DNA from: Pantoea trifolii
Lineage (GTDB): Bacteria; Pseudomonadota; Gammaproteobacteria; Enterobacterales; Enterobacteriaceae
Direction of reading: 5' to 3'
Assembly (NCBI RefSeq): GCF_024506435.1
Contig: NZ_JANIET010000001.1
Location: 3,100,001 to 3,164,000, forward strand
Length of the DNA stretch: 64,000 nt
In this document: one piece after another, positions 3,001-63,619 of the stretch
Layout: every line of letters starts with the position of its first letter
Numbering within the stretch: position 1 is the stretch's first letter
Translations under genes and position numbers: made by a program
Notes under the pieces: generated by a model
Seen by the model: only the letters and a program-made list of their open reading frames with translations
The model's database searches: none
Told to the model about the DNA's origin: nothing

Positions 3001-3109
3001 ACTCGGCGTAAATATCACTCACCGGAAGGTGAGCGTCCTGAAAGCGGGTCAGCAGTTTGTTTACACGAAATGCCGACAGAGCGGGCGAACCACGCAGAAT
3101 TTCCATCAT
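1..3109 (-). CDS. purL: Phosphoribosylformylglycinamidine synthase, 3' end outside window
   Basis: PurL converts FGAR, glutamine and ATP to FGAM, the fourth step of purine synthesis, in the cytoplasm. The reverse-strand translation starts [20 protein letters not shown] and stays collinear with the long enterobacterial PurL through the N-terminal PurS-like part, the linker and both AIR-synthase-like halves. Recognisable stretches are [35 protein letters not shown] and the glycine-rich [20 protein letters not shown]. About 1036 of roughly 1295 residues lie in the window, so the C-terminal class I glutaminase domain is missing only because the window ends. The start at 3109 is the first of two ATG codons and matches the family start. 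A PurR operator lies 91 bp upstream, so purine repression is expected. The track splits this gene because no single reverse ORF was listed, but the frame reads through. Confidence 0.97.
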
Positions 3110-3379: not shown

Positions 3380-5361
<1,982 letters not shown>

Positions 5362-27827: not shown

Positions 27828-28191
27828 GGGGCTGATTCTGGACTCGACGGGATTGTGAAGCCTTAGGAGCATGCCGAGGGGCGGTTTGCCTCGTAAAAAG
27901 CCGCAAAAAAAATAGTCGCAAACGACGAAAACTACGCTTTAGCAGCTTAATAACCTGCTTTGAAGCCCTCTCTCCCTAGCTTCCGCTCTTAAGACGGGGA
28001 TCAAGAGAGGTCAAACCCAAAAGAGATCGTGTGGATGCCTTGCCTGGGGTTGAAGCACTAAATCTAATCAGGCTAGTTTGTCAGTGGCGTGTCTGTCCGC
28101 AGCTGGCCGGCGAATGTAAAGACTGACTAAGCATGTAGTGCCGACGGTGTAGTAATTTCGGACGCGGGTTCAACTCCCGCCAGCTCCACCA
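27828..28191 (+). ncRNA. ssrA: Transfer-messenger RNA
   Basis: The 364-nt RNA starts GGGGCTGATTCTGGACTCGA and ends in CCA (28189-28191), with the TTCAACTCCC T-loop near the 3' end and the acceptor stem pairing of start and end. The tag frame at 27918-27950 encodes ANDENYALAA followed by TAA, identical to E. coli. The 3' end is the attachment site of the island that follows, so its last bases may be supplied by the element. Confidence 0.98.
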
Positions 28192-28276
28192 AAATCCTTC
28201 GAAGATGATTCCAGAGTCATCCGTAGAAGTCCTGAAAGCCCGCACGGCACAAGCCCTGCGGGCTTTTTTGTGTCTG
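28174..28276 (+). repeat. Left attachment region (attL)
   Basis: CTCCCGCCAGCTCCACCAAAAT and the following hairpin region recur in diverged form at 55911-56010. Shared blocks include CCAGAGTCAT, GAAGTCCT and the GGGCTTTTTTGT terminator end. The two copies are about four-fifths identical by eye, so this is an old or hybrid duplication and the exact crossover core cannot be fixed. Confidence 0.7.
28235..28269 (+). terminator. ssrA terminator
   Basis: AAAGCCCGC and GCGGGCTTTTTT pair around a 14-base loop, 43 bp after the CCA end of ssrA. Confidence 0.88.
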
Positions 28277-28311
28277 TAACCTTCCGAGACGATACGCCTG
28301 AATCCAGAGAT

Positions 28312-28366
28312 AATTGGTATACGAATTGGTATACGCTAGAATGTATGCCAATTACGTATACCAATT
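28312..28366. repeat. Integrase arm-type repeats at left end
   Basis: The 12-mer AATTGGTATACG occurs twice in tandem (28312-28323, 28324-28335), a one-mismatch inverted copy follows (28343-28353) and an exact inverted copy CGTATACCAATT lies at 28355-28366. The same 12-mer reappears at the right end of the island. They precede the integrase ATG by 18 bp and so could serve both recombination and int autoregulation. Confidence 0.72.
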
Positions 28367-28384
28367 CAGGGAGGAAATGCAGAC

Positions 28385-29590
28385 ATGGCAAGGACTACAC
28401 GCCCGTTAACTAACACAGAAGTTCTGCGCGCTAAGGCAACAAATAAAGACATTACCTTGCATGATGGTGAAGGGCTTTTTTTAGTGGTTAAAACTACCGG
28501 AAAAAAACTTTGGCGCTTTCGCTACCAACGTCCGTCCACAAAAAACCGTACAATGGTTGGGTTGGGGGGCTTCCCCGCCCTTTCACTTGCAGACGCGAGA
28601 CGTATGCGCGCAGAATACCTCTCATTACTTGCTAACGGCATTGATCCACAGACACTGGCCGAAAAAGCCTCAGAGCAGCAGCAGATCGAGTTAGACAGCA
28701 TTTTCTCAACTGTGGCAGCTAACTGGTTTACTTTGAAGCAAGCCAGCGTTACACCGGATTACGCAAAGGATATCTGGCGCTCTATTGAGAAAGATGTTTT
28801 TCCTGCCATTGGTGAGATCCCCGTTCAGGAAATCAAAGCTCGCAAGCTCGTTGAGGCACTGGAGCCAATTAAGGCCCGTGGTGCTCTTGAAACCGTTCGC
28901 CGTCTGGTGCAACGCATTAACGAGATCATGACTTATGCGGTTAATACAGGACTGATCGATGCTAACCCAGCTTCAGGTATTGGTATGGCATTTGAGAAAC
29001 CTAAAAAACAGCATATGCCGTCGCTGAGGCCGGAGGAACTGCCAAATCTTATACACTCTTTAGCAAATTCCAATCTATCCGTTCCAACTCGCTGTTTAAT
29101 TGAATGGCAGCTTCTGACTCTTGTGCGCCCCTCTGAAGCTTCTGGTGCGCGATGGGAAGAAATTAATCTTGATTTAAAGCTCTGGACGATTCCAGCCGAA
29201 CGAATGAAATCAAAACGCGAACATATCGTCCCTATATCGCCTCAATCTTCAGAGCTACTTGAGATGATGAGACCTATAAGTGGTCACCGTAAACATATTT
29301 TCCCAAGTAGAAACGATCCTAAAAGCCCAATGAATAGTCAAACTGCTAATGCTGCTTTAAAAAGGATTGGTTATGGGGGGAAACTCGTTGCTCATGGACT
29401 ACGTTCTATCGCTAGCACTGCATTAAATGAAGCAGATTTTAATTCAGACATAATTGAATCAGCGCTAGCTCATTGTGATAAAAATGAAGTTAGAAGAGCA
29501 TACAATCGCTCAATTTACCTTGAACAAAGAATAAAAATGATGGCATGGTGGGGAAATTTTGTTGCTTCCGCCAAAAAAATATCTAATTGA
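28385..29590 (+). CDS. int: P4-family tyrosine integrase
   Basis: A 401-residue site-specific recombinase that inserts and excises the island at ssrA. An N-terminal DUF4102-like arm-binding domain (about 1-90, GEGLFLVVKTTGKKLWRFRY), a core-binding SAM-like domain (100-200) and the catalytic domain (215-390) are visible. The catalytic residues are R248 (LVRPSEASGARW), H337-x-x-R340 (HGLR), H363 (ALAHCDKNEVRRAYNR) and the nucleophile Y373. All are intact, so the enzyme should be active. AGGGAGGAAATG-like sequence gives the ribosome site. It ends 11 bp before the next start. Confidence 0.95.
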   Translation: MARTTRPLTNTEVLRAKATNKDITLHDGEGLFLVVKTTGKKLWRFRYQRPSTKNRTMVGLGGFPALSLADARRMRAEYLSLLANGIDPQTLAEKASEQQQIELDSIFSTVAANWFTLKQASVTPDYAKDIWRSIEKDVFPAIGEIPVQEIKARKLVEALEPIKARGALETVRRLVQRINEIMTYAVNTGLIDANPASGIGMAFEKPKKQHMPSLRPEELPNLIHSLANSNLSVPTRCLIEWQLLTLVRPSEASGARWEEINLDLKLWTIPAERMKSKREHIVPISPQSSELLEMMRPISGHRKHIFPSRNDPKSPMNSQTANAALKRIGYGGKLVAHGLRSIASTALNEADFNSDIIESALAHCDKNEVRRAYNRSIYLEQRIKMMAWWGNFVASAKKISN

Positions 29591-29601
29591 GGTCAAGTTA
29601 T

Positions 29602-31683
29602 ATGAAGCTAAATGCAGACAGAGATAAGCTTTCTAAGAACGTTGAAGCTGGAAGACTTTTCAATTGGCTCAACGAACTGGATCAAGAACAAAAAATACAT
29701 TTATATGAATCAGAATTATATTATGATTTCCCTCTTTATAAGGATGATGAAGATAGGTTAGTAATATCACCATTAATGCTAGTTTCACGCATGTATGGAA
29801 TAATTATATTTTACCTATCAGATACTCATGAGAGAGATGCACACGCAACTTTAGCAAAAAATGACTCTTCCTTAGAAAACGTTTACAGCCAAATTTATTC
29901 ACGACTGTTAAAGCAAAAAAACTTAAGGAAAAATCGTAAGGATTTGAAGCTTAATGTCGAATCAGCAATTTTTGCACCCTATGCTGACCCATCTGTTGAG
30001 TATCAAACTGAGAGTAAGGTAATTGTCTCAAAAGCTTCATTAGAAAGCTTCATAGAAGAATTGGAAGAACCTATCGATGAAGATATTTATAGCGAAGCAG
30101 CATCAACAATTGAAGGTGGAAAAGGCCTTATAAGGCTAAAGCCACGTGATATCGATGGTTTTCCTGATGAATCAAAGGTTCAAGTTATTAGTAAACTTGA
30201 ATCGGCTATAGCCCGATTTGATAGTAATCAACTGGGTAGCTGCGTCAATGAAGTAGAAGGTATTGAACGCATAAGGGGATTAGCTGGTTCTGGAAAAACT
30301 GTAGTATTAGCTATGAAGGTCGCCATAACTCACTTACGCCATCCTAATAAGAAAATATTATACACCTTCAGTACCAAAGCTTTATACCAACATGTTAAAA
30401 GGCTTATTACTAGATTTTATCGCCAGTTCGACGATTTAGATCCTGACTTTGAAAACTCGATAGACATCTTACATGCATGGGGCGGTGGGAATACGCCCGG
30501 AGTTTATTATAATGCATGCCTGAACAATTCAGCAAATTACCTAAACTTTGCTGAGGCGAATAGAATTTCGCCGAAAGATCCTTTTTCATATGCATGTAAG
30601 TCTCTCCTAGAGAAAAGTGAAATCATTAAACAGTATGATTATGTTTTTGTTGATGAGGCCCAGGACTTCGATAGTCCATTTCTTCAGCTTTGTCTAAAGC
30701 TGGCTATAGAAGACAAAATGGTTTTTGGCTTGGATGTATTCCAAAACATATTCCAAACCACCGCCCCTTCAATCGAAGATATATTGGGTGAAGGTAAATC
30801 ATTAAGCTTAGATAAGTTTCTGAATAGTTGTTATAGAACACCATGCGCAACTTTGGTTTGCGCACATGCAATAGGCTTAGGAATTTATCGAACGCCGGTA
30901 CAAGCAATTAAGACGACTGAAGACTGGAAAAATCTTGGGTATCAAGTGGAAGGGCAACATGCCGAGCGCTTCAGATCTGGAGAGGTTATTTCAGTTTTAA
31001 GAACTGAAGAAACGTCACCAACTCTTTATCATGCAGATAAAGACAAGATTATTATAACGCAAGCCTTAGAAAACATAATTGATGAATGTAGCTGGGTGGC
31101 TAATAGAATAAATAATGACATTAAGTCCGAAGGATTAAATGCCTCTGACATACTTATAATATGCGCAGATGATAAACACTATAAGAACTATTACAACCAG
31201 ATTTCATATTTCCTCTCACAAAATGAAATTGATGTTAATAATGTCAATGCAGATAAATTTAACATAAGTGATTTCTCGATTGATAACAAAGTAACTTATT
31301 CTACAATCCACAAAGCAAAAGGTAATGAAGGTTATAGTGTTTATATAATTGGAAGTGAATCACTATATAACAATCCAAATGTAAAAAATAGAAACTTGTT
31401 GTTTACAGCGATGACAAGGACTAAAGGATGGCTAACTATGACGGGTATTGGAGTAGTTGCATTAGAGTTATTCGACGAAATCCAAGATGCAAAGAACAAT
31501 GTTCCTCATCTTAAGTTAACCTATCCATCAGGTGAGTTATTAAATAAAATTGAGGTTGATCTTCAGCGATTTGAAAACAATGAAGAGCCTGATGACTTCA
31601 AAAAGGTTCTGGAGGCGCATGGTATTGATGCGCTTAAAGCTATGATTCGAGAGCATGAAGCTAAAAGGACTAAAAAATCATGA
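29602..31683 (+). CDS. SF1 (UvrD/DUF2075-like) helicase, candidate defence protein
   Basis: This 693-residue protein has a superfamily 1 helicase core: Walker A GLAGSGKT (226-233, K232), Walker B VFVDEAQDF (D351-E352), a YRTP motif, a VTYSTIHKAKGNEGYSV motif V and LLFTAMTRTKGWL as motif VI. The first 200 residues are not helicase; they have strand-rich sequence (LVISPLMLVSRMYGIIIFYLSD) resembling a NERD/PD-(D/E)XK-like fold in which the expected E-x-K is absent, so activity there is doubtful. I chose the ATG at 29602 over a TTG at 29587, using GAGG upstream. Its stop overlaps the next start as ATGA, so the two are translated together. Its position between int and the cos-like site is the cargo slot of P4 satellites. 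The gene is AT-rich. Function is not established; defence is inferred from context. Confidence 0.8.
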   Translation: MKLNADRDKLSKNVEAGRLFNWLNELDQEQKIHLYESELYYDFPLYKDDEDRLVISPLMLVSRMYGIIIFYLSDTHERDAHATLAKNDSSLENVYSQIYSRLLKQKNLRKNRKDLKLNVESAIFAPYADPSVEYQTESKVIVSKASLESFIEELEEPIDEDIYSEAASTIEGGKGLIRLKPRDIDGFPDESKVQVISKLESAIARFDSNQLGSCVNEVEGIERIRGLAGSGKTVVLAMKVAITHLRHPNKKILYTFSTKALYQHVKRLITRFYRQFDDLDPDFENSIDILHAWGGGNTPGVYYNACLNNSANYLNFAEANRISPKDPFSYACKSLLEKSEIIKQYDYVFVDEAQDFDSPFLQLCLKLAIEDKMVFGLDVFQNIFQTTAPSIEDILGEGKSLSLDKFLNSCYRTPCATLVCAHAIGLGIYRTPVQAIKTTEDWKNLGYQVEGQHAERFRSGEVISVLRTEETSPTLYHADKDKIIITQALENIIDECSWVANRINNDIKSEGLNASDILIICADDKHYKNYYNQISYFLSQNEIDVNNVNADKFNISDFSIDNKVTYSTIHKAKGNEGYSVYIIGSESLYNNPNVKNRNLLFTAMTRTKGWLTMTGIGVVALELFDEIQDAKNNVPHLKLTYPSGELLNKIEVDLQRFENNEEPDDFKKVLEAHGIDALKAMIREHEAKRTKKS

Positions 31684-32351
31684 TTTCGACAGCTAATTTT
31701 ACTATATCTAAACAAGAAGCAGTTAAGTTAGTTAGAAATGCAAATCTTTTGGGCAATTTCAATAATCAAATTGTATACCCAGACAATATGCCATCAGAGC
31801 TTCGTCCATTAAGTTATGAGAAGGCTTGGGAGAAATGCACTGTTCAACAATGGTTCAACATACAACTTGAAGACGGTTCATTGCTCATTTTTAAATACGG
31901 AAGCTATTCTTACCTAATGACACCTTTGAAAACTTTAGATTATGATGAGTATATTAAAGCGTTTTATCCAGAGGATGAATGGAGTGATTCAGAAGAGTAC
32001 AGAGTCATGATCTCTCAGGAATATGATAATTATATAATCACACATACTAAAAACCATCCAGCCATGCCTGTAAGATTTGATATTGACGACATCCATTATT
32101 GTGAGCACTCTCACCCATATTGCCACTTACATTTTGGGTCAGACAATGATGGAAGAATTGCAACAAAAAAAATATTAACACCTTTAGCTTTCACCGCATT
32201 CATATTGAGATCTTTTTACCCCAAACTTTGGAAAATCTATGCAGAGTCACACTTGATGGAAGAGCATTTGCCTCATTTTAAACGTAATTTACAGGCTCCC
32301 GAAAATTTACTCTGGAAGGACCACGAAGATAATTTCCTTTTTGTGGGCTAG
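31680..32351 (+). CDS. DUF2290-like protein coupled to helicase
   Basis: A 223-residue protein whose start overlaps the helicase stop by four bases. The most conserved-looking part is the histidine- and cysteine-rich CEHSHPYCHLHFGSDNDGR (about 142-160), with H-x-H spacing that suggests a metal or nucleotide site, followed by a helical C-terminal part (LAFTAFILRSFYPKLWKIY). I think it belongs to DUF2290, from memory of the HP...HLHFG motif; this needs a profile search. No transmembrane segment or signal peptide is seen. Tight coupling implies a shared complex or toxin-like partner. Confidence 0.7.
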   Translation: MISTANFTISKQEAVKLVRNANLLGNFNNQIVYPDNMPSELRPLSYEKAWEKCTVQQWFNIQLEDGSLLIFKYGSYSYLMTPLKTLDYDEYIKAFYPEDEWSDSEEYRVMISQEYDNYIITHTKNHPAMPVRFDIDDIHYCEHSHPYCHLHFGSDNDGRIATKKILTPLAFTAFILRSFYPKLWKIYAESHLMEEHLPHFKRNLQAPENLLWKDHEDNFLFVG

Positions 32352-32375
32352 CTCTATTCATATACGTTGCGCGCG

Positions 32376-32394
32376 CTCGTACCCCCGCCACGCC
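32376..32394 (-). other. cos-like site of P2/P4 type
   Basis: CCCCGCCACGCC at 32383-32394 matches 11 of 12 bases of the conserved part of the P2/P4 cohesive end (complement of GGCGAGGCGGGG). It lies between the int-side cargo and the delta-like gene, which is where cos lies in an integrated P4. The flanking bases fit less well. Repeated CATGCGC/CATGCAG words at 32418-32535 next to it are unexplained. Confidence 0.5.
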
Positions 32395-32597
32395 TGCCCG
32401 CTTTATGTAGCAGTTTTCATGCGGCTGCATGAGTCCCTTCAGGCCGCGCCACTGCTGGCCTCAATAGCATAAACTCAGCAGCATTTATTCATGCGCTTTC
32501 ATGCAGCATAGGCATGCACTCATGCGCTTCAGGCTGGCCAGAGAAAAGGGATGTAAAAAAACCGGCTCGATGGCCGGTAAAGTGTGGCTGATAAAAC

Positions 32598-32867
32598 TCA
32601 GCATGAGGCGTTCTGACGGTTCGAAAGCCTGCTGGCTGATCCATAACGGTTTAGCGTCTGCCGTGGTGGCGGTAATTCTTTTTCTGGGACGTCTTCAGCT
32701 ACCTTCTGTGGTTTCATGATAATGGTGTCCAGACTCTCCAGCGTTGTGAACGTGCAGGAGCAGTCGATATTACGACACTGATACCACGTCTTTTTTAACG
32801 TACCTGTCTGATATTCGCTGGTACGCGTGTGTGCGGTCATGCTGCATTCAGGGCATTTCATTGCCAT
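32598..32867 (-). CDS. Ogr/Delta-type zinc-finger activator
   Basis: An 89-residue protein with the Ogr/Delta fold signature: C-P-E-C (MKCPECSMTAHTRTS) and C-x4-C (YQCRNIDCSCTF), which bind one zinc. P2 Ogr and P4 Delta switch on late phage promoters of the helper. The C-terminal tail of about 45 residues is proline- and charge-rich. Start choice: the ATG at 32867 has AAGGAT eight bases upstream; a GTG at 32870 is an alternative. It reads toward the cos-like site, as delta does in P4. The neighbours sid and psu are missing. Confidence 0.85.
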   Translation of the reverse strand: MAMKCPECSMTAHTRTSEYQTGTLKKTWYQCRNIDCSCTFTTLESLDTIIMKPQKVAEDVPEKELPPPRQTLNRYGSASRLSNRQNASC

Positions 32868-32870
32868 CAC

Positions 32871-33496
32871 GTTTTATCCTTCTGTTTAGCGCCAGTTCCC
32901 CGTTCAGGGTGGAGTTAACGGTTTATTAAAGCCGTTATCGTTAGCTTTCTTTGTTGGGGAGAGCCAATGGCGGCTCCGGTGAATGCATTGTGCCGTTGCT
33001 GGCACAGGCGAGCTATCGGATGGCGTTGTGTGATGGCCCAGACAAAGTGACCTTCTTCTGGCTGGCAGCAAGGTGACATATTGGCTATCTGCTCAACTTT
33101 TAGATTTATATATATCCTTCACCATTCTTCACCTTAATAAAAAAGAGAGTAAATACAATACATTAAAGGATGAACTATTAATGGTTATCCCTTCACCCAG
33201 TGTTCACCATGCTTCACCTGGGTTTTTATGCAGATAAACTTTATCGAGTGTTTATTTCGATTGTTTTAATGAAAATCAATCATTAAAAACGATTTGCTTA
33301 ATTCATCTCAGCACTATTGGTCTATATTGCCCTATATTTACCTGTGCAAAAAACAGCCGGCTAATTTTTACGCGCTTGTGCCAGCCGCAGCACCATTTTG
33401 CCTTGTTGCTTTGGCAGTAAATATGCTGAGAATAAAGAGCTACCCGACTCCGGACGTATCTGTCCGTATCACCACGGACTCAATAAGAGGTAGCTC
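32871..33496 (+). other. Gene-free control region with TTCACC iterons
   Basis: No convincing gene lies here. TTCACC (GGTGAA on the other strand) occurs at 33118, 33128, 33192, 33203 and 33213. It matches the core of P4 type I iterons (GGTGAACA), which bind the alpha primase at ori. The stretch is AT-rich and precedes alpA, and could hold the replication origin or the promoter of the alpA operon. Confidence 0.5.
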
Positions 33497-33763
33497 ATGC
33501 ACACCGTATTATCCGCAAACTCTTCCGCTCCTGCGGCTCCGGCTTTACCCGTAAACCCGGCGCTGAACGATCGCTTCCTGCGACTACCGGAAGTCATGCA
33601 CGTCTGCGGCCTGTCCCGCTCCACCATTTACGACCTTATCAGCCGTAACGCCTTCCCGGCGCAGGTGTCGCTTGGCGGCAAGAACGTGGCATGGCTCGCC
33701 AGCGAAATCAGCGTCTGGATGAACGATCGCATTGCAGCACGCGGTCAGGAGCGCACCGCATGA
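33497..33763 (+). CDS. AlpA/Vis-type excisionase regulator
   Basis: An 88-residue protein with an MerR-like winged helix: RFLRLPEVMHVCGLSRSTIYDLISRNAFPAQVSLGGKNVAWLASEI (about 26-72). AlpA-family proteins act as transcriptional activators of integrase or as excisionases. The ribosome site AAGAGGTAG lies just upstream. Its stop overlaps the next start as ATGA, and it starts the alpA-ash-primase operon. Confidence 0.93.
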   Translation: MHTVLSANSSAPAAPALPVNPALNDRFLRLPEVMHVCGLSRSTIYDLISRNAFPAQVSLGGKNVAWLASEISVWMNDRIAARGQERTA

Positions 33764-33972
33764 GGTTTTTGAACCGTGCCGGTAAATCACGCCAACCCTT
33801 TGTCGCGCATACAGTGCCGCCTGTGCATGCGACTGGCGCCGGGAAGGGTAAACCGCTACAGACGCAGCGTTCCGGCACAACGCAGCCAGCCTTAAGCCTG
33901 CAAAGCACAGGCGTCCCACCCTCCGGTATCCGGACTTTTTCCCGTGGCGAGATTCATCCCGCCAGCTGCTGA
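33760..33972 (+). CDS. Small hypothetical satellite protein
   Basis: A 70-residue basic protein starting in the ATGA overlap with alpA. It has no recognisable domain; it is rich in Gly, Pro, Thr and Ser and ends in a lone cysteine. It is kept because the coupling and the ATGA chain of its neighbours are typical of satellite operons. It could be a chance open frame in GC-rich DNA. Confidence 0.45.
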   Translation: MRFLNRAGKSRQPFVAHTVPPVHATGAGKGKPLQTQRSGTTQPALSLQSTGVPPSGIRTFSRGEIHPASC

Positions 33973-33981
33973 GGTTGACTG

Positions 33982-34521
33982 ATGTCATTTTTAACTGCTG
34001 CCTCCGGCTTGCGCGCCGGGGCCATTCCCTGGTACAGTAAATCCGCTGTCGCAAAATCGGCAGCCGGGCGTAGGAACCCGAGTTACTCAATGGCGACACC
34101 AGACGCGCCATGCGTCTTTTTTTGTGTCCAAGCCTCAGTGCACCCATTTTTCGGGCAACGGTTCTGTATCCGTTGCGCCGTCTGCGTAATGGTGGCCCGG
34201 GCGGGGCAGCCTTCGGGCTGGCCGGTATCCATTGAGGCCGGTATTCCTACCCCCGTTCGGGCTACCACCCATGAGTGTAGGAACTCCGGTGGTAGCGATA
34301 ACCGCTACTCTTTGGAGACTGCCATCATGGCTACGGTCCTTAATTCCCCATACCCTCAGTTTGTTTTCGTCTTTGCCGCCGTGCGCCGCTGCGAGCGCCA
34401 GCAGCATATTCATATGCTCCGCACCGTTGCCGCCGATGAGCGCGCCGCCCGCCTTTTGCTGGCCCGCGACTACGTGCTGTCCTTTGCCGCCCGCCTGCCG
34501 GTCCGGGAGGTGCGCGCATGA
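33982..34521 (+). CDS. Ash / Icd-like satellite protein
   Basis: The C-terminal 65 residues ([49 protein letters not shown]) have the sequence pattern of the phage Ash/host cell division inhibitor Icd-like family of P4-type elements. The long frame is 179 residues, but the first 115 are low-complexity and contain an intrinsic terminator at 34101-34123. An internal in-frame ATG at 34327, with GGAG eight bases upstream, would give a 64-residue protein containing the whole conserved part. The short form may be the real product. The end overlaps the next gene as ATGA. Confidence 0.75.
34035..34117 (+). ncRNA. Possible CI-like immunity RNA
   Basis: Within the ash leader, TGTCGC (34047-34052) can pair with GCGACA (34093-34098), enclosing a GC-rich arm, and the terminator hairpin follows. 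P4 controls lysogeny by a small processed RNA (CI) from just this place that acts by premature termination. The likeness is in position and fold, not in a checked alignment. Confidence 0.4.
34101..34123 (+). terminator. Terminator inside the ash reading frame
   Basis: AGACGC and GCGTCT pair around a five-base loop and are followed by TTTTTTT. It sits between the alpA part of the operon and the short ash start, as expected of termination-based satellite immunity. Confidence 0.75.
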
Positions 34522-34742
34522 CTCACGCCACGATTTCTCACGCCGACCTGGTACGCCTTGAGCACCTGCGTAACGCCGGGCGCTTCGTCAGCGACATGAC
34601 CGCCTTTCAGGAGTGCCACGAACTGCCGCAGCCCGCTCAGCGCGCGCAGCTGGCTTCGCTGGTCTTTCTCATCACCGAGCAGCTGGATGACGTGGTGACG
34701 CGCTGCCAGAACAACTGGATGAACGCGGAGGATGAATCATGA
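34518..34742 (+). CDS. Small hypothetical satellite protein
   Basis: A 74-residue acidic, helical protein ([21 protein letters not shown], then [23 protein letters not shown]) typical of small genes before the primase in P4-like elements. It overlaps both neighbours by ATGA. No function is assigned. Confidence 0.8.
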
Positions 34743-35062
34743 AAGACCGCACCCTTTCGCCTGAACTGCGCGCCGCGCTTTCTCGCCGCGCCGTCGCCTG
34801 CGCGTGGCTGACCGTCTGCCGCGAGCAGCAGCGCTACCCCGGCCTGACGCTGGCACGCCTTGAGCACGTCATCGAAACCGAGCTGGAGGGCTTTTACCTG
34901 CGCCAGCACGGACGCCTGCGCGGTCAGGAAATTGCCTGCGCGCTGCTGGATGACCTGCTGTCCAGCGGGCCGCTGAAGTCGGCCCCGCGCCTGAGCTTTC
35001 TCGGTCAGGTGATGATGGATGAACTCTGCGGGCGCATGACAGACGCGCCGGTGCTGCACTGA
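34739..35062 (+). CDS. DUF5375-like satellite protein
   Basis: A 107-residue protein ([46 protein letters not shown]) that resembles the DUF5375 family found immediately before the alpha primase in P4-like prophages. The family name is from memory. It is 14 bp before the primase and coupled to the previous gene by ATGA. Confidence 0.75.
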
Positions 35063-35076
35063 GGGAGAACAGAACG

Positions 35077-37401
35077 ATGAAAATGACCGTATCAGAGGCG
35101 GCCACCGCAGCCCGGGGCCACTGGCCCCGCATACTCCCCGCGCTGGGCGTGAAAGTAATCAAAAACCGCCACATGCCGTGCCCGGTCTGTCAGGGAACGG
35201 ACCGCTTTCGCTTCGACGATATAGACGGGCGCGGCACGTGGATTTGTAATCAGTGCGGAGCCGGTGACGGCATGGACCTGGTGAAAAAGGCGCTCAGCAT
35301 TACGTTCATAGAGGCCGCCGCGCGCGTAAACGACCTGACCGGCAACCTGCCGCCGGTGGCTGCCGGCAACAGTACGGCAGCCGGTCCCGAAACGGACGAG
35401 GCCTCCCGCGCCGCAGCTGCTGCACTGGCGCAGCAGCTGGTCAGCACGGCAAAGGAAGCGGCGGGTAACGCCTACCTGTCGCGCAAAGGCCTGCCAGAGC
35501 AGACGTGCCTTACGCTTTCGAAGGCGCATAAGGTGGCGTTAACGACCTACCGCACCGGCGATGTGGTTGTGCCCCTGCACGACATGAGCGGCCAGCTGGT
35601 TAACGTGCAGCTTATCAATGCCAGCGGAGAGAAGCGCACGCTCAAGGGCGGCCAGGTGAAAGGCGCCTGCCACGTTCTCAGCAGCGCTAAGCCGGCAAAG
35701 CGCATCTGGCTTGCCGAGGGCTACGCGACCGGCCTGACGGTGCACAACCTGACCGGTGATGAGGTGTGGGTTGCGCTCTCATCGGGCAACCTCCTTTCTC
35801 TGGCTGGCCTTGCCCGTGAAAAGCACGCCACGCTGCAGCTGATGATTGCCGCCGACCGCGACCTTAACGGCAACGGTCAGGACAAGGCGAAGAAGGCCGC
35901 CGATGTCAGTAACGCCGTCGTCGCGCTGCCGCCCGTGTTCGGCGACTGGAACGACGCCTTTTTGCAGCTCGGCGACGTCCCGACGAAGCAGGCGCTTGCT
36001 GAGGCCGCCGCGCCCGCCACCGCCAGCCCGTTTGACGTGATGAGCGAAGCGGAGTTTTCGGCGATGAGCGCCAGCGAAAAGGCGGAGCGCGTTGCTGAGC
36101 ATTTCCGCAATGCGCTTGCGGTGGATGCCAGCGGCGAAATCCTGTCACGCTACAGGGCGGGCGCGTGGAAGGTCATTTCGGGTAAGCAGTTTGAGCGCGA
36201 CGTGGCGAAGCTGTTCCAGCGGCTGCGCGCGCCGTTCTCGGCGGGCAAAATTTCAGGCGTGGTGGATACGCTGAAGCTGATGCTGCCGCAGCAGTCCGAC
36301 CCGGCGCGCCGCCTGATAGGCTTTCGCAACGGCGTACTGGACACGCGCACCGGCAGCTTCAGCCCGCACAGCAAACGCTTCTGGCTGCGCACGGTCAGCG
36401 AGGTGGACTTTACTCCGCCGGTTAAGGGCGAGACGCTGGCAGCCCACGCGCCGCACTTCTGGCAGTGGCTGGACCGCGCCGCCGGACGCGACGCGGCAAA
36501 GCGCGATATTATTCTCGCCGCGCTGTTTATGGTGCTGGCGAACCGCTACGACTGGCAGCTGTTTCTGGAGGTCACGGGTCCCGGCGGCAGCGGTAAAAGC
36601 ATCATGGCCGAAATTGCCACCATGCTGGCCGGAACGGACAATACCGCCTCCGCGACCATCGAGACGCTGGAGTCATCGCGCGAGCGCGCGGCGGTGATTG
36701 GCTACTCGCTGATAATTCTGCCCGACCAGGAGAAGTGGAGTGGCGACGGTGCGGGCATCAAGGCGATTACCGGCGGCGACGCGGTTTCCGTGGACCCGAA
36801 ATACCGCGATGCCTACTCAACGCACATTCCGGCGGTAATCCTGGCGGTAAACAACAATCCGATGCGCTTTACTGACCGCAGCGGCGGCGTATCACGCCGC
36901 CGGGTCATCCTGCACTTCCCGGAAATCATCCCGGCAAACGAGCGGGACCCGCAGCTGAAGGAAAAAATCAGCGGCGAGCTGGCCGTTATCGTGCGCCAGC
37001 TGATGCAGCAGTTCAGCCAGCCGCAGGACGCAAGGGTGCTGCTTCAGTCGCAGCAGAACTCCGATGAGGCGATGCGCATCAAGCGCGACGCGGATCCGAT
37101 GGTGGACTTCTGCGGCTATCTGTTCACCACGCCGGAGCCTACTTCGCTTTATATGGGGAACGCCAGCATCAGGCCCTTACAGCCGAGACGCTATCTTTAT
37201 CACGCCTATCTGGCTTATATGGAGGCGAACGGCTACAGGAATCCACTCAGCATGAAGATGTTCAGTCTTTCGCTGGAGAGCATTATGCGCGAGTACGGGC
37301 ATCATTATCTGAAGCGGCGCACGAAGCTGGGGATGCAGACCAATCTCGATCTGACTGAGGAAAGCAGCAGCGACTGGCTGCCTAAGTGTGATGCCACCTG
37401 A
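35077..37401 (+). CDS. P4-type alpha primase-helicase
   Basis: The 774-residue replication protein combines primase, helicase and origin-binding functions. The N-terminal zinc ribbon has C35, C38, C57 and C60 (PCPVC, WICNQC). A Toprim-like primase part follows (IWLAEGYATGLTVHN; MIAADRDLNGNG). The C-terminal SF3-type helicase has Walker A GPGGSGKS with K507 and the motif ILPDQEKWSGDGA. The C-terminal 90 residues form the origin-binding part. All motifs are intact. A terminator follows 17 bp after the stop. The 3' end recurs as a relic at 54666-54894. Confidence 0.95.
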   Translation: MKMTVSEAATAARGHWPRILPALGVKVIKNRHMPCPVCQGTDRFRFDDIDGRGTWICNQCGAGDGMDLVKKALSITFIEAAARVNDLTGNLPPVAAGNSTAAGPETDEASRAAAAALAQQLVSTAKEAAGNAYLSRKGLPEQTCLTLSKAHKVALTTYRTGDVVVPLHDMSGQLVNVQLINASGEKRTLKGGQVKGACHVLSSAKPAKRIWLAEGYATGLTVHNLTGDEVWVALSSGNLLSLAGLAREKHATLQLMIAADRDLNGNGQDKAKKAADVSNAVVALPPVFGDWNDAFLQLGDVPTKQALAEAAAPATASPFDVMSEAEFSAMSASEKAERVAEHFRNALAVDASGEILSRYRAGAWKVISGKQFERDVAKLFQRLRAPFSAGKISGVVDTLKLMLPQQSDPARRLIGFRNGVLDTRTGSFSPHSKRFWLRTVSEVDFTPPVKGETLAAHAPHFWQWLDRAAGRDAAKRDIILAALFMVLANRYDWQLFLEVTGPGGSGKSIMAEIATMLAGTDNTASATIETLESSRERAAVIGYSLIILPDQEKWSGDGAGIKAITGGDAVSVDPKYRDAYSTHIPAVILAVNNNPMRFTDRSGGVSRRRVILHFPEIIPANERDPQLKEKISGELAVIVRQLMQQFSQPQDARVLLQSQQNSDEAMRIKRDADPMVDFCGYLFTTPEPTSLYMGNASIRPLQPRRYLYHAYLAYMEANGYRNPLSMKMFSLSLESIMREYGHHYLKRRTKLGMQTNLDLTEESSSDWLPKCDAT

Positions 37402-37417
37402 AATTCATAATATTTAG

Positions 37418-37440
37418 AACCGGCGAAAGCCGGTTTTTTT
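37418..37440 (+). terminator. Primase terminator
   Basis: AACCGGC-GAAA-GCCGGTT with a U-run of seven. The same hairpin, slightly decayed, follows the relic primase at 54903-54924. Confidence 0.92.
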
Positions 37441-37618
37441 GCGCTAAAGGTGGCCGTTAAATTTAGTAGGCCACCAATAGATCTATTCTCATCCTTTGTA
37501 AAAGTGCTAGGACAATCAGATTTTATTAATATGATATAAGGCTACTATGAGCGCTCAAAAGACATTCAAAATACATGTTTTATTGTCCTGTGTTATAGAT
37601 GAGTCATTCAAAAAAACA

Positions 37619-38299
37619 TCAATAAAAGGTGGCTAGACTAACAATTTTGGAATTGTCACCAGTTATGGCCGTTACCCTGTAATTTAAGCTATTTCCCTTA
37701 GAAGATTCCACCAAGTATCCGCCGCCTTCAAACTGCTTGAGCTGAACTTTATTCCCTAATAAATCGATGCCGTTTTTATAATAGCAAAATCTTACATTGC
37801 CAAATCCTTCATTTTTAAGATTAGCGGATTTAATTCTTTTGAAGCAGGAGGAAACCTCCTCACCATAATAAATTGGAATGTTTATTCGTAGCTCTATTTT
37901 TTTTACTGAGTGCTCTGCGATAGTAGTTGGGGTAAGTAAATTGTCTGTTGTTTTTTGGTCTAAAGGGTTGAACATACTAGCGTAACTCACAGCAGTACCG
38001 TCCTTGACTAATTCGACTTGGATTTTTTTTATCGTAACAGGCCTGCTCATGTTATTTGACACCTCAAGGATTATCGAGGCGGGGCCAGCAAATCTAGTGC
38101 TATCTCCATATAGTGCTCTAGGCACAGCAATATCTTTGTTTAGTTCTAATTCGGAACTAGCTACAAAACCTGTATTAACGGCTACATCAAGCTTATCTGT
38201 TTCAGGTTTAAATTGATTGTAGTAGCTACATGCAGCAAGAACTAGCCCCAACGTAGCTATTATAGTGTTTATATTTTCACGTTTCATTAATATCTTCAC
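37619..38299 (-). CDS. Putative lipoprotein of unknown function
   Basis: A 226-residue protein with an N-terminal hydrophobic helix ending in LGLVLAACSYY, a plausible lipobox with C24. The rest is beta-rich (VRFCYYKNGIDLLGNKVQLKQFEGGGYLVES) with no family I recognise. A shorter start at 38287 (MKRENINTIIATL) is as likely, giving a more usual signal peptide length. It is AT-rich and lies opposite to the primase. Unknown cargo. Confidence 0.65.
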   Translation of the reverse strand: MKILMKRENINTIIATLGLVLAACSYYNQFKPETDKLDVAVNTGFVASSELELNKDIAVPRALYGDSTRFAGPASIILEVSNNMSRPVTIKKIQVELVKDGTAVSYASMFNPLDQKTTDNLLTPTTIAEHSVKKIELRINIPIYYGEEVSSCFKRIKSANLKNEGFGNVRFCYYKNGIDLLGNKVQLKQFEGGGYLVESSKGNSLNYRVTAITGDNSKIVSLATFY

Positions 38300-38642
38300 G
38301 ATTTATTAAATTCTAAAAATTAATTTTTAAAAGCCATTATATATCAAAGCTGTAACTTTCCTAGATGACATGCCCATCCTTGGCACGACGGGGCCAAACT
38401 GGCTGAACTAAAGGTCCGCTGTGAGTAAAAAGCGCACGTCAAAATGATAGCTACAGGAATGTTCTCCACATTAAACATAATAACCCAATGCCGAACCGAT
38501 AAGCGATTACACTTACTGCCACGATAGTTAGCATGATCACAATGCCATAACTTATTGTGAAAAATCTAATCGTAACCTTAATTATTATGATCTCATCGCA
38601 AGCAAACACGCTTTCAACCATAAAAACTAAGGAATAAAGATT
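38300..38642. other. Gene-free stretch
   Basis: AT-rich, with no coding frame of note. It separates the lipoprotein-like gene from the DUF1471 gene and probably holds both promoters. Confidence 0.5.
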
Positions 38643-39579: not shown

Positions 39580-42500
39580 ATGCAATTTATCATCAACGGC
39601 CCTGACATTCCGGATGCACTTTTACAGGCGCACGAGGAAGGCCGCGTGGTGTTCTTCTGCGGAGCAGGAATTTCCTACCCTGCCGGTTTGCCGGGTTTTA
39701 AGGGGTTGGTGGAACAGATCTATCGGCTGACCGGAACAACACTTTCGGAAATCGAGCGGGAGGTCTTCGAGCGAGGGCAGTTCGATGCCACACTTGATTT
39801 GCTAGAACGGCGCTTACCGGGTCAGCGTATGGCCGTTCGCCGCGCGCTGGCAAAAGCCCTGAAGCCAAAGCTACGTCGCAGAGGTGCTATTGATACACAA
39901 GCGGCGCTGTTGCGCCTGGCGCATAACCGCGAAGGCGCAGTTCGGTTGGTCACTACCAACTTTGATCGCACCTTTCATGTGGCAGCAAAACGTACAGGCC
40001 TAACGTTCAGCGCTTATGCAGCGCCAATGCTGCCAATTCCAAAAAACAGCCGCTGGGACGGGTTGGTCTATCTGCATGGCCTGCTTCCTGAAAAGTCTGA
40101 TGATACCGCCCTGAATCGCCTTGTGATCACTAGCGGCGACTTTGGCTTGGCCTATCTCACTGAGCGCTGGGCAGCGCGCTTCGTAAGCGAATTGTTCCGT
40201 AACTACATAGTCTGCTTCGTGGGCTACAGCATAAACGACCCGGTACTGCGCTATATGATGGATGCGCTGGCAGCCGATCGGATGCTTGGTGAAGTCACGC
40301 CGCAAGCATGGTCACTAGGTGATTGTGAGCCCGGGCAGGAGCACCGGAAAACCATTGAGTGGGAGGCTAAAGGCGTCACACCCATCCTTTACACCGTACC
40401 GGCTGGCACATACGATCATTCAGCGCTACACCAAACGTTGCACGCTTGGGCAGATACTTATCGCGATGGTGTGCAGGGCAAAGAAGCCATCGTTGTCAAA
40501 CATGCACTGGCCCATCCACAGGATAGCACTCGGCAGGACGATTTCGTTGGCAGGATGCTATGGGCTTTGTCAGATAAATCAGGTTTACCGGCAAAACGCT
40601 TTGCGGATCATAATCCAGCCCCACCGCTGGACTGGCTGCTGGAAGCTTTCTCGGACGAACGCTTTCAGTACAGCGATTTGCCACGCTTCCAAGTGCCTCC
40701 GCACATAGAGGTAGACACCAAACTTCGATTCAGCCTGATTCGGCGGCCTGCATCCTATGACCGTGCGCCGCAGATTCTGCTTGCTTCTGGAGGCGCAATT
40801 AATAGTCAGTGGGATGACGTGATGTTTCATATAGCCCGTTGGCTGGTTCGTTATCTGGACGATCCAAGATTGATCATCTGGATTGCAGAACGTGGCGGGC
40901 AAATGCACGACCGTTGGCCGTTTTTAATCGAGCACGAGCTGGATCGCTTCTCAGCGCTGGAGCAGGATCGCAAGACCTCCGAGCGGGATGAAATTCTTTT
41001 GCATGCCCCCAAGGCTATTCCCGGCTCCCTGATGTCCACCTTATGGCGGCTTCTGCTCAGTGGTCGTTTGAAATCGTCATGGCGTGACCACGACCTGTAT
41101 CGCTGGCAACGTCGTCTGAAGCGCGAGGGCTTGACCACAACATTGCGCCTGGAGTTACGCGAGTTACTTTCTCCTATGGTGGCGTTGAAAAAGCCGTTTC
41201 GCTTGAGCGGGGACGACCAGAACAGCCTCTATGGACCCATGCGAATTAGGCAATTGGTGGACTGGCAGCTAGTGCTAGCCGCCGATCACGTGCATTCAGT
41301 CCTGATTGACCTTGCCGACGAGTCGTGGAAATTGGCTTTGCCGTACTTAGTTGAAGATTTCCAGCTGTTGTTGCGTGATGCACTGGACCTGCTGCGGGAG
41401 ATGGGCGATGCCGACGATCGTAGCGACCGCTCGCATTGGGATCTGCCATCCATCACTGAGCACTGGCAGAATCGAGGTTTCCGAGACTGGGTGAGCCTGA
41501 TTGAATTGCTGCGCGATGCATGGCTGGTAGTTCGATCCAATGACAGCGCTATCGCTACACGCATCGCTCTGAATTGGTTTGAATTACCATATCCCACCTT
41601 CAAACGTTTGGCTCTGTTTGCCGCGAGCCAAGATAACTCAATACCACCCGAGCAGTGGGTCAATTGGTTGCTGGCGGAAGGCGCGTGGTGGCTGTGGTCC
41701 ATAGAAACCAAACGGGAGGTATTCAGGCTGTTTGTTTTACAGGCTCAGCATTTGACAGGAACTGCACAAGACAATCTAGAAGCAGCCATCTTGGCAGGAC
41801 CTCCACACGAAATGTACCGGGATGACCTGGATGCAGAACGTTGGCAAGACTTGGTGACACATTCCGTTTGGTTGCACCTGGCCAAGCTAAGCACATCGGG
41901 CCTTGATTTGGGTGCATCTGCCGCGGCACGTTTGGCGGAAATATCCACCGCCTACCCACAATGGCAGATGGCAACTAATGAGCGTGACGAGTTCTCTCAC
42001 TGGATGAGCGGAACCGGTGACCCAGACTTCGAGGACAGTAAAGATGTCGACATTGCGCCCCGTAAGCGGCAGGAACTGGTGCAATGGCTAGCAAAACCGA
42101 TGCCACATCATCATCCTTTATACGAAGACACGTGGTGTGACGTTTGCCGCACGCGCTTTTTTCACAGTATTTCCGCGTTACATAAGTTATCACAAGATGG
42201 TCTGTGGCCAGCGGGCCGATGGCGTGTAGCTTTACAGACTTGGGCCGAAGAAGGGATGGTGTTGCGTTCTTGGCGGTATGCCGCACCGCTGGTACAGTCG
42301 ATGCCCGATGAAGTACTTCAGGAGATTGAGCACTCTGTTACTTGGTGGATGAAGGCGGCCTCCAATTCCATCAGTCGCCACGAGGAGATTCTGCTGAGCC
42401 TTTGTCGCCGTGTTCTGGAGCTGGAAACAGGATCTGGATCTTACGAAATCGAGACTTATCACCCAGTAGGGTCGGCGATCAACCATCCTATTGGGCATAT

Positions 42501-43395
42501 AACGCAAGCATTGTTCAGCCTGTGGTTTAAGCAGAACCCGAATGACAATGATCTGCTTCCTATTGAATTGAAGACCATATTCACAAAGCTGTGCGATTTA
42601 CAGATAGATCAATTCCGCCATGCCCGGGTGCTGCTGGGTTCACGGCTTATCGCATTTTTCCGCGTGGATCGCCCGTGGACCGAACAGCACCTGTTGCCCT
42701 TGTTTAGCTGGAGCAATCCCGTCGAAGCAAAAGCCGTGTGGGAAGGTTTCCTCTGGTCGCCGCGCCTGTATCAGCCTTTGTTGACAGCCTTCAAGTTGCA
42801 GTTCCTGGAGAGCGCAAACCACTATGATGATCTTGGCGAGCACCGCCAGCAATTCGCAACCTTACTAACTTACGCTGCACTGGGCCCGACCAAGGGTTAC
42901 ACCGTGGAAGAGTTCCGAGCAGCGATTGGCGCGCTTCCACAAGAAGGTCTGGAGGTATGCGCGCAAGCGCTCTACCAAGCGCTTGAAGGTACTGCCAATC
43001 AGAGTGAGGACTATTGGAAAAATCGTGCCCAGCCATTCTGGCAACAGATCTGGCCAAAATCCCGTGACCTGGCTACCCCACGCATCTCCGAGTCATTAAC
43101 TCGTATGGTCATTTCAGCCCGTGGTGAATTCCCGGCGGCTTTGAAGGCGGTGCAGGACTGGCTGCATCCGATCGCACACTCGGATTACGTCGTTCACCTT
43201 TTGCATGAGTCTGGGATATGCAGCCGGTATCCTGCCGACGCACTGGACCTGCTGAATACAGTGATTGCCGACCAACAGTGGAGTCCCCAGGAATTGGGAC
43301 AGTGCTTAGATCAAATCGAGCAAGCTGCAATCCAGCTTGGGCAAGATGCCCGTTACCATAGATTAAGGGAATACCTACGAAGGCGCGGCAGGTGA
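39580..43395 (+). CDS. Large SIR2-domain protein, candidate antiphage NADase
   Basis: A 1271-residue protein with an N-terminal SIR2_2 domain: GAGIS (28-32), TTNFD (N127, D129), catalytic His H166 in VYLHG, and IVCFVGYSINDPVL. The other 1000 residues are helical and probably form the sensor; the C-terminal family may be DUF4020, from memory. In defence sirtuins (DSR1, DSR2) the SIR2 domain depletes NAD+ when a phage protein is sensed. The length is close to that of DSR1. AAGGAA precedes the ATG. The GC content is nearer to the chromosome than that of the surrounding genes. It appears to be a single-gene system. Confidence 0.83.
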   Translation: MQFIINGPDIPDALLQAHEEGRVVFFCGAGISYPAGLPGFKGLVEQIYRLTGTTLSEIEREVFERGQFDATLDLLERRLPGQRMAVRRALAKALKPKLRRRGAIDTQAALLRLAHNREGAVRLVTTNFDRTFHVAAKRTGLTFSAYAAPMLPIPKNSRWDGLVYLHGLLPEKSDDTALNRLVITSGDFGLAYLTERWAARFVSELFRNYIVCFVGYSINDPVLRYMMDALAADRMLGEVTPQAWSLGDCEPGQEHRKTIEWEAKGVTPILYTVPAGTYDHSALHQTLHAWADTYRDGVQGKEAIVVKHALAHPQDSTRQDDFVGRMLWALSDKSGLPAKRFADHNPAPPLDWLLEAFSDERFQYSDLPRFQVPPHIEVDTKLRFSLIRRPASYDRAPQILLASGGAINSQWDDVMFHIARWLVRYLDDPRLIIWIAERGGQMHDRWPFLIEHELDRFSALEQDRKTSERDEILLHAPKAIPGSLMSTLWRLLLSGRLKSSWRDHDLYRWQRRLKREGLTTTLRLELRELLSPMVALKKPFRLSGDDQNSLYGPMRIRQLVDWQLVLAADHVHSVLIDLADESWKLALPYLVEDFQLLLRDALDLLREMGDADDRSDRSHWDLPSITEHWQNRGFRDWVSLIELLRDAWLVVRSNDSAIATRIALNWFELPYPTFKRLALFAASQDNSIPPEQWVNWLLAEGAWWLWSIETKREVFRLFVLQAQHLTGTAQDNLEAAILAGPPHEMYRDDLDAERWQDLVTHSVWLHLAKLSTSGLDLGASAAARLAEISTAYPQWQMATNERDEFSHWMSGTGDPDFEDSKDVDIAPRKRQELVQWLAKPMPHHHPLYEDTWCDVCRTRFFHSISALHKLSQDGLWPAGRWRVALQTWAEEGMVLRSWRYAAPLVQSMPDEVLQEIEHSVTWWMKAASNSISRHEEILLSLCRRVLELETGSGSYEIETYHPVGSAINHPIGHITQALFSLWFKQNPNDNDLLPIELKTIFTKLCDLQIDQFRHARVLLGSRLIAFFRVDRPWTEQHLLPLFSWSNPVEAKAVWEGFLWSPRLYQPLLTAFKLQFLESANHYDDLGEHRQQFATLLTYAALGPTKGYTVEEFRAAIGALPQEGLEVCAQALYQALEGTANQSEDYWKNRAQPFWQQIWPKSRDLATPRISESLTRMVISARGEFPAALKAVQDWLHPIAHSDYVVHLLHESGICSRYPADALDLLNTVIADQQWSPQELGQCLDQIEQAAIQLGQDARYHRLREYLRRRGR

Positions 43396-45914: not shown

Positions 45915-47120
45915 TCATCTGCGTGGATAGCGAGGCAATTTTTTTTGCGCGATTAAAGTATCTATTGCGGACTGGGCGAGCCTATTTGAGATTGTCAGAT
46001 TAGCAGCTATGCTTCTATGTATGCCTTTTCCCCAGTTAGTTTTATTTCCTTCAGGCATTAAATCATAAACTTCATTAAGTAGCTTAGGGTTTATGATAGT
46101 TTTATGTGATACAATAATTTCACTCAACCGTTCCTGCATCAGTCTTTTTATTTTTCTTATCCCCACCAACAAACTGTCATTGTCATTATATTCTTTTGTG
46201 GCTGTGATGTTTTCCAGCTTATTATATATAAATAATCTTACGAGATTATAAACAGTAACTAAGGAAGAAAGTGATCTAGGATTGACTTCTTTTGAGGGTA
46301 ATTTATTTTTAACTTTGATGAGGAGTGCATCGGTGTAACCATAACTTTTCATTGAGCGCACATGCAATTTATACATAATACTAATTAATGAACAACTTCT
46401 TTTTGCAAGTGCTAAACTACGATTAAATATCAACTCGTCAGGAAAAGACTGTTTATGTGTTTGAATTGTGTGGCAACTTTCCTGAATCAGATTAAGTACA
46501 TGGTAAAATTTCATAAGTACAGAATCATTGCCAAATCCCGTCAAGTCAGACTGATTAGCATGAAAAATAATATAATTAGAGCTAGCTTCAAATCGTGATG
46601 TTATTGTTTTCAATGTAGATTGTGTTAGCGGGACATTCTGTGCACTAAATGCACTTATGAGCTCATCATTGAGCTTATAAAGCTCAATACAAAAGGCATC
46701 AATGCGTCTCTGGCAGTCGCTTGTGTGTATTAAAAGCAGCATGGCTTGCTGCCGTTCAGATGCAAATTTACCTATCAATAATGATGTGAAAAGCAATCCA
46801 CTTAATGTAAGTAATACTGATATAAAACGAGCAAACCCGACAGGAGTAAGATCCCCATAACCTAGCGTTGTAAATGTCACAAAACTGTAATAAATCGAAT
46901 CGATAAAGCCATCGGAATTATTTAACTTTCCAAAAAGCGTGATTAAAGTCGAAGCCAGCAATATAGCAATTATAGCACCTATAATTAAGTCAATGTATGT
47001 GGCCTTTTGAATTAACTTTCCGATCGTAGATGACAGTTCATATTTAACATCTGGTGGGTTGACTGATGATTCGTCATCATCAGAAATGAGATGTTCTGTT
47101 TGTAGTGGCATTTTTTTCAT
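45915..47120 (-). CDS. Two-TM potassium-channel-like protein
   Basis: With the start at 47120 (MKKMPLQTEHL) the protein has 401 residues: TM1 about 43-63 (LIIGAIIAILLASTLITLF), a pore helix and the selectivity filter TTLGYGD (84-90), TM2 about 96-118, then a 280-residue cytoplasmic helical domain that is not an RCK domain and that I do not recognise. The longer frame to 47228 adds a hydrophobic stretch without a start signal. Potassium channels with odd cytoplasmic sensors could act as effectors that depolarise the cell, but nothing in the sequence shows what opens this one. The gene is AT-rich, with no close partner. Confidence 0.8.
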   Translation of the reverse strand: MKKMPLQTEHLISDDDESSVNPPDVKYELSSTIGKLIQKATYIDLIIGAIIAILLASTLITLFGKLNNSDGFIDSIYYSFVTFTTLGYGDLTPVGFARFISVLLTLSGLLFTSLLIGKFASERQQAMLLLIHTSDCQRRIDAFCIELYKLNDELISAFSAQNVPLTQSTLKTITSRFEASSNYIIFHANQSDLTGFGNDSVLMKFYHVLNLIQESCHTIQTHKQSFPDELIFNRSLALAKRSCSLISIMYKLHVRSMKSYGYTDALLIKVKNKLPSKEVNPRSLSSLVTVYNLVRLFIYNKLENITATKEYNDNDSLLVGIRKIKRLMQERLSEIIVSHKTIINPKLLNEVYDLMPEGNKTNWGKGIHRSIAANLTISNRLAQSAIDTLIAQKKLPRYPRR

Positions 47121-47499
47121 AAGTAAAAAATTCCTTTTTAGAGATGAGTTATAAAATAGATAATGAAAAACCAGAACGAAAAGCAACTGTTCAAATTCAT
47201 TATGTGTTGACAGGGTCAAAATTGCCAAGCTCTGTTTAAGTTAATAACTGCCCAACCAATCCATTAAAAGCTTAAAGAGAGACCTAACGCAATCAACCAT
47301 CCACAATTTCCAGATGTTGTCAAACTGCGTTAGAAAACATTAAATATACATAATCGCACCGCATAAAAAGGGATATCGTGTCGATGCGGTTACGGTCTGA
47401 TGTCATGCATGCTTAAACTAGGCTTATTGTACTAATAACGCATTTTCTTCATGACAGTCAATACGCCAAAGAATACCATAATAGACTTAAACACGTGCC

Positions 47500-53236: not shown

Positions 53237-53421
53237 CCACTGTGGCCTGAGGAAACCCCGGCATATTTTTCGTTAGGGTTTAATAGGCAACGGATGAATA
53301 ACAGTGTGGCACCGGCTCAACGCTCATCAAGTTGCTTTGCCCGGATACGTTTTCAAATGATACTTTGAAGATGGCGTAGGGCTTATTTTTTTAAGTTGTA
53401 TATTTCTAACATGGAGAATGT

Positions 53422-63375: not shown

Positions 63376-63619
63376 GGTGACATTCCTCTTTATTACGGCA
63401 ATAAAAATCCCTGCGTGCGTGGCACACAAATTAAATTAACGGCAATGCTTTTTTAAATTAAAAATAACCTGTCGGGAATTTCCATATCACCTCCCGGAAA
63501 TTAAAGACGAAAAGAGTCGCTCGAAAAATAACGAGTAATAAATAAAGACGAAGGTAAACACCACGCAATCGAACAGCGAAAAGCTGTCTAATGCGCAGCG
63601 CAAATCAGCACGCTGAGGT

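Follow-up and report, generated by a model that had tools for sequence, protein, structure and literature searches.

Does a pair of AT-rich genes in Pantoea trifolii, one encoding a helicase and the other a DUF2290 protein, make up an antiphage system that had escaped description, or is it a copy of one already known, and how might it work? The pair lies in the cargo slot of a P4-like satellite, at positions 29602-32351 of a stretch of 64,000 nucleotides (the window; contig NZ_JANIET010000001.1, positions 3,100,001 to 3,164,000 of the forward strand). The original prediction, made from the letters alone, took the two genes for a new two-gene defence system and could match them to no named one. 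On the profile matches set out below, the pair is almost certainly a diverged-branch member of the known Helicase+DUF2290 antiphage system (Rst_HelicaseDUF2290). The two genes and their parts are as follows.

29602..31683, + strand: SF1 (superfamily 1, UvrD-like) helicase of Helicase+DUF2290, 693 residues (PADLOC, Pfam, AlphaFold2 model)
29704..29988, + strand: degenerate NERD-like (nuclease-related) domain of the helicase, residues about 35-129 (hhalign)
30277..30300, + strand: Walker A / motif I GLAGSGKT, residues 226-233, with K232 (translation)
30652..30669, + strand: motif II DEAQDF, from residue 351 (translation)
31680..32351, + strand: DUF2290 protein, 223 residues, partner and probable effector (Pfam, PADLOC)
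32073..32126, + strand: conserved DUF2290 core R132-x-D134 ... H145-P-x-x-H149 (alignments)

Results

Assignment to a named system

The helicase matches the PADLOC model PDLC03002 ('Helicase'), assigned to Helicase+DUF2290 by its model name and neighbouring accessions, at 411.5 bits (E 1.5e-123) over residues 12-652 of the protein and positions 11-655 of the 707 in the profile. Its partner had been called 'DUF2290-like', and the term proves exact: PF10053 scores 52.2 bits (curated cut-off 25), and PADLOC PDLC02998 and PDLC02999 match with E-values of 5.2e-18 and 7.3e-18. Pfam adds one sub-threshold lipocalin, PADLOC gives DUF2290 models only, and NCBIfam and PHROGs give nothing for this protein. 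Both genes are on the + strand and overlap by the four bases ATGA, the DUF2290 gene starting at 31680 and the helicase gene ending at 31683, as the original prediction had it. The pair thus shows a helicase-model match over most of the length, a PF10053 partner and adjacency on one strand; membership was judged with the PADLOC profiles rather than with the system rules of PADLOC or DefenseFinder.

Rousset et al. (2022, PMC9122126) report a helicase with DUF2290 among the systems cloned from the P4-like slot (psu-int, beside cos), with T7 specifically inhibited in MG1655. For their DUF2290 search they took a query from K. pneumoniae SB5961, which was presumably also where the tested system came from, and Helicase+DUF2290 is described there as recurring in further prophage hotspots. 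The system appears as 'Rst Helicase+DUF2290' among DefenseFinder-derived systems (PMC12278908) and as 'Rst_HelicaseDUF2290' in PMC11811056. With PADLOC models that match and a published, named system, the claim that the pair is undescribed falls by the refuting condition that the original prediction itself had set, and so does the statement that no named system fits it. The window copy resembles the published system in having both components, with the helicase gene first, on one strand and in the int-cos P4-like slot. It differs in that its satellite is without psu and a sid-position gene; T7 inhibition is a property of the published system, whereas the window copy is known from sequence.

The copy is rather diverged, its 410 bits with the helicase model falling short of the 988 that two other loci of the family reach. 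The closest DUF2290 relatives in a word-based search comprise twelve at 61-74% identity, nine at 45-50%, five at 32-35% and one at 24%, plus one 114-residue fragment at 73%. A scan of genome contigs led to a single locus, in Raoultella ornithinolytica (L008), which has the same tmRNA-integrase-helicase-DUF2290-cos block with 73.7% DNA identity over 4,474 bp; in a near-DNA search none of 20,395 E. coli records matched the pair.

The helicase and its relatives

The helicase gene starts at ATG 29602, just 3' of a GAGG stretch; the mechanically called open reading frame opens earlier, at TTG 29587. GLAGSGKT with K232, DEAQDF, TIHKAKGNE (from residue 568) and FTAMTRTK (from residue 601) are in the places originally read for them, and the helicase motifs, V and VI included, are intact. 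K232 and most residues of motifs I and II, including D351, E352, Q354 and D355, are invariant in an alignment of 73 rows (A4: the window and 72 of 120 listed relatives). The protein passes the Pfam cut-offs for UvrD_C_2, UvrD_C, UvrD-helicase and Viral_helicase1, and with its Walker A motif, DExQD motif II, motifs V and VI, UvrD domains and UvrD-like fold it belongs to SF1A (UvrD/Rep/PcrA-like). NCBIfam gave sub-cut-off matches alone, the best being the STM2767 family (158.6 bits where 550 are required). In PHROGs the helicase matched a DNA-helicase family at 71 bits, an exonuclease V family at 20.5 bits and families whose function is unknown, and a search of 50,697 phage records with the helicase protein found no match.

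Three relatives were weighed against this assignment. Gabija (GajA and GajB), to which the pair had been likened, also consists of two genes with a UvrD-like SF1 helicase. The parallel holds for the helicase superfamily and ends there: no GajB model scores above 40.3 bits, compared with 411.5 for the Helicase model, and the partner is DUF2290 and has no GajA match in PADLOC or Pfam, so Gabija was rejected. Hachiman has the same two-gene layout of helicase sensor and nuclease effector (PMC12278908). It too was rejected: the partner is DUF2290 and not DUF1837, with no DUF1837 or HamA match in PADLOC or Pfam. HamB is moreover an SF2 helicase, whereas the window helicase is SF1. The AlphaFold2 model of the helicase (pLDDT, the predicted local distance difference test, 84.8) lies near UvrD and Schlafen helicases, and the group III Schlafens SLFN11 and SLFN14 are its top Foldseek matches; UvrD, however, ties with them in VIA, and the window helicase is without the Schlafen core domain. 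The modelled likeness may reflect perhaps just the common SF1 core.

The DUF2290 partner

Among 19 diverse helicase-DUF2290 pairs, D65, P82, R132, H145, H149, R159, F171 and Y180 of DUF2290 are kept in all, and D134, P146 and E216 in 18. R132, D134, H145 and H149 are all invariant in a 40-row DUF2290 alignment (A3). The set of D, R-x-D, H-P-x-x-H and R looks like a catalytic or metal-binding site. Fold searches of DUF2290 against PDB, VIA and viral models gave nothing above the common background, which does not by itself prove a new fold, and the best E-value of the DUF2290 profile against PDB sequences was 1.6, at chance level. One member of the 40 in the DUF2290 set matched Cas6 (E 0.00064), a hit set aside as probable chance.

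Linkage and spread of the two genes

Of 392 family genomes, five, the window's own included, carry DUF2290 (PF10053, E 0.001), and the helicase model (PDLC03002, E 1e-60) picks out the same five; the other 387 have neither. The four further genomes listed from the genus are all without DUF2290. Across 398 genomes of the phylum, nine loci (own included) carry it, with the helicase directly upstream in eight and a contig end in the ninth. In plasmid records, 51 match the helicase and three the DUF2290 protein; nine of the 11 helicase-matching records that were fetched have DUF2290 downstream (eight annotated, L042 by tblastn). Two of these nine (L002, L003) had come via the DUF2290 search, so that the fairer count is seven of the nine chosen by helicase alone. 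The two plasmid loci without DUF2290 (L036, L037) are haloarchaeal, and their helicases, annotated with a nuclease-related domain, keep the NERD ECK residues. The distance matrices of helicase and DUF2290 correlate at r = 0.965 over 19 pairs, a value that none of 5000 permutations reaches. The co-occurrence across genomes that the original prediction called for is therefore found, and helicase and DUF2290 are a real two-gene unit, beyond chance; of the 'new two-gene system' the unit stands, and 'new' gives way to the 2022 report (PMC9122126).

In two other genomes of the family the pair comes directly after a small serine-recombinase-like gene (L024, 6070-6639; L025, 11805-12380), as read by eye from the start of its sequence, and hence seems mobile outside satellites too. 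In two related genomes (L030, L031) the pair adjoins genes that look like type I restriction-modification genes, again from sequence starts read by eye.

The satellite and its surroundings

The element around the pair is a P4-like satellite integrated at ssrA, with the helicase pair as its cargo module. Its features are these.

27828..28191, + strand: transfer-messenger RNA (tmRNA) gene ssrA, probable satellite integration target (ARAGORN)
28385..29590, + strand: tyrosine integrase of the P4-like satellite (Pfam Phage_integrase 5e-30)
32367..32458, no strand: cos-region block shared with P4-like satellites (DNA alignment)
32598..32870, - strand: Ogr/Delta-like zinc-finger protein (PF04606 7.7e-15)
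33497..33763, + strand: AlpA-like regulator of the satellite (PF05930 4.1e-20)
35077..37401, + strand: P4 alpha-type primase-helicase, satellite replication (Pfam Zn_Ribbon_Prim, D5_N, Pox_D5)

Two E. coli P4-like satellites (L017, L018) likewise sit directly 3' of ssrA, in the order tmRNA, integrase, cargo, psu, Ogr/Delta, a further gene, helix-turn-helix regulator, DUF5375 and primase, with small genes besides. In the cargo slot L017 carries a retron St85 pair, and L018 a pair of SIR2 and an ATP-binding protein. The predicted position between int and a cos-like site is borne out by the integrase on one side and, on the other, by the conserved block: it is 75% identical over 92 bp to L018, and its part 32383-32458 is 76% identical over 76 bp to L017, both in the cargo-psu stretch where Rousset et al. 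place cos (PMC9122126). The Ogr/Delta-like protein and L017 Delta share 46.7% identity across 60 residues, and a DUF5375 gene lies between the AlpA gene and the primase-helicase gene. Some part of window 28170-38400 is matched by 2,116 of 5,426 E. coli genomes, and L017 and L018 are two of these matching loci. The pair is AT-rich, as had been noted, with a GC content of 35.9% (helicase) and 35.4% (DUF2290) compared with 54.5% in window 1-27827 and 62.7% in the P4-type primase gene. Forming one unit and lying in a satellite slot in which defence systems are known to be carried, the two genes are probably antiphage.

The psu and sid-position genes that flank Ogr/Delta in L017 and L018 have no counterpart in the window (tblastn of the three L017 proteins against the whole window); of L017's trio of psu, Ogr/Delta and sid-position gene, Ogr/Delta alone remains in 32352-33497. 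A search for a far-end attachment (att) repeat with the 24-mer of the tmRNA 3' end matched, in the window, the tmRNA itself alone. The 15-mer of this end matched the tmRNA and, with two mismatches, 61233-61247 on the - strand; the latter match lies inside a long open reading frame (60652-63429) and was discounted as an att site.

Just downstream of the satellite, 39580-43395 encodes a 1271-residue SIR2-domain protein that matches PADLOC Dsr1, a known defence gene, almost end to end (2507 bits). Two dynamin-like GTPases at 48237-52141 match PADLOC LeoBC (505.6 bits) and LeoA (535.8 bits), and in 52157-54414 a PD-(D/E)XK protein matches PDC-S26 and another protein PDC-S11, both candidate defence genes. 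Together these genes form a dense defence island at about 39.5-54.4 kb, which also holds an ion-channel protein (45915-47228, - strand; Pfam Ion_trans_2 5.7e-15) that no PADLOC model matches up to E 0.001.

A degenerate NERD-like domain in the helicase

The N-terminal domain of the helicase is homologous to that of the haloarchaeal NERD SF1 helicases L036 and L037, whose helicase core is about 32-33% identical to that of the window. By hhalign, the helicases of 18 verified pairs match the L036/L037 NERD with a probability of 94.7 and a score of 48.7, and the 72 A4 rows with 63.1 and 32.6; 50 column-shuffled control runs with the 18-pair profile scored at most 21.2. Pfam NERD itself recognises L036 (26.9, cut-off 22.1) and gives no match to L037 up to E 1. 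The second-best PADLOC match of the window helicase is C3a187 ('NERD+UvrD'), with 56.6 bits over 344-614. The likeness ends at the active site: L036 and L037 retain ECK, and the stretches fetched for them hold no DUF2290, whereas the window helicase has lost the NERD residues and has DUF2290 beside it. In L036 the NERD helicase (874-3036) is followed by a DUF1837 (HamA-type) gene (3750-4491).

At the NERD catalytic columns the window helicase has P for Asp, Y for Glu and S for Lys. Of 90 rows, 88 of them distinct, drawn from the 18 verified pairs and from A4 (72 rows of unchecked pairing), none has Lys, five have Glu and 14 have Asp. The catalytic Lys is absent in every row examined, and the distant branch keeps part of the site. 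An active NERD nuclease-helicase was rejected, the catalytic D and ExK being gone in the window, and in the window's branch the domain has very probably lost its activity. The helicase seems, from these alignments, to descend from a fused nuclease that lost its cutting residues. A Pfam survey, in the parts available, gives NERD for Mokosh type I and Nhi-like and not for Helicase+DUF2290 (PMC10952713); a non-exhaustive literature search found nothing beyond that survey tying DUF2290 to a nuclease-related domain or to schlafen.

Discussion

The whole explanation, a diverged Helicase+DUF2290 member on a P4-like satellite that works through a helicase sensor and a DUF2290 effector, is one that we consider fairly probable. 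The mechanism taken alone, in which the helicase motor activates the DUF2290 effector, is put forward tentatively, at somewhat less than an even chance. The SF1A helicase would load on DNA structures of phage or plasmid replication (single-stranded DNA, ends, forks); its ATP-driven movement would activate DUF2290 bound to it in a physical complex, and DUF2290 would then act on nucleic acid through D65, R132, D134, H145, H149 and R159, as a putative nuclease. The missing NERD Lys suggests, as a still unproven point, that DUF2290 supplies the effector in trans, and the dead NERD-type fold would now probably have a docking or structural role. Given the decayed fused nuclease next to it, DUF2290 is most simply taken as the effector acting in trans, and the SF1A helicase as sensor and motor. 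Hachiman offers an analogy, since it too combines a helicase sensor-motor with a trans effector (PMC12278908). In P. aeruginosa PAO1, PA1372 and PA1371 have been assigned to Helicase+DUF2290 (PMC11637435), and loss of PA1372, the gene that these data concern, removes the cost of plasmid pNUK73 together with expression changes, SOS included (PMC4410645). The plasmid-cost data fit a system that reacts to DNA replication.

Some points temper this account. The 19 pairs include near relatives, and r can be raised by common descent without anything further. All 14 rows that keep the NERD Asp are more distant pairs, and a Glu stands within three columns of the NERD Glu in 11 of the 18 pairs. Lastly, the original authors explain the pNUK73 cost through rep expression (PMC4410645).

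Of the alternatives, the one that survives best, though we think it unlikely, reverses the roles: the helicase would be the effector, unwinding or stripping phage replication intermediates alone, and DUF2290 a sensor or inhibitor that restrains or recruits it. Conservation of D65, R132, H145, H149 and R159 in 19 of 19 pairs and of D134 in 18 would seem more than a plain regulator needs. A one-gene NERD nuclease-helicase ancestor is more doubtful still; its nuclease would have decayed, and DUF2290, a nuclease of unseen fold with a D/R-x-D/H-P-x-x-H/R site, would have become a trans effector docked on the dead NERD. We lowered our estimate for this replacement slightly because Asp and Glu are partly kept in distant pairs. 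An RNA-targeting, Schlafen-like system, in which DUF2290 would cleave tRNA or other RNA and replication stress would be sensed by an SF1 helicase akin to the group III Schlafens, is very improbable. Least probable of all is that the pair serves satellite replication, maintenance or helper competition and not defence against third-party phages: it does sit in a satellite next to int, in a copy missing psu and the sid-position gene, but the same slot in the two E. coli satellites holds unrelated modules beside the same replication genes, the pair also occurs on plasmids and at chromosomal loci where no satellite gene was seen, and the satellite has its own alpha primase-helicase.

As a system the pair was already described, and what the window contributes is a further member, a rather diverged one, in the satellite slot where it would be expected. 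Its possible value lies in mechanism, since the role of the system's helicase domains was not explored according to PMC10952713. The degenerate NERD-like domain is a modest new point; with the strict pairing and the invariant DUF2290 residues it provides concrete mutants for bench work. Work on phage defence and work on plasmid cost (PA1372-PA1371) each came upon the pair separately, and it links the two fields.

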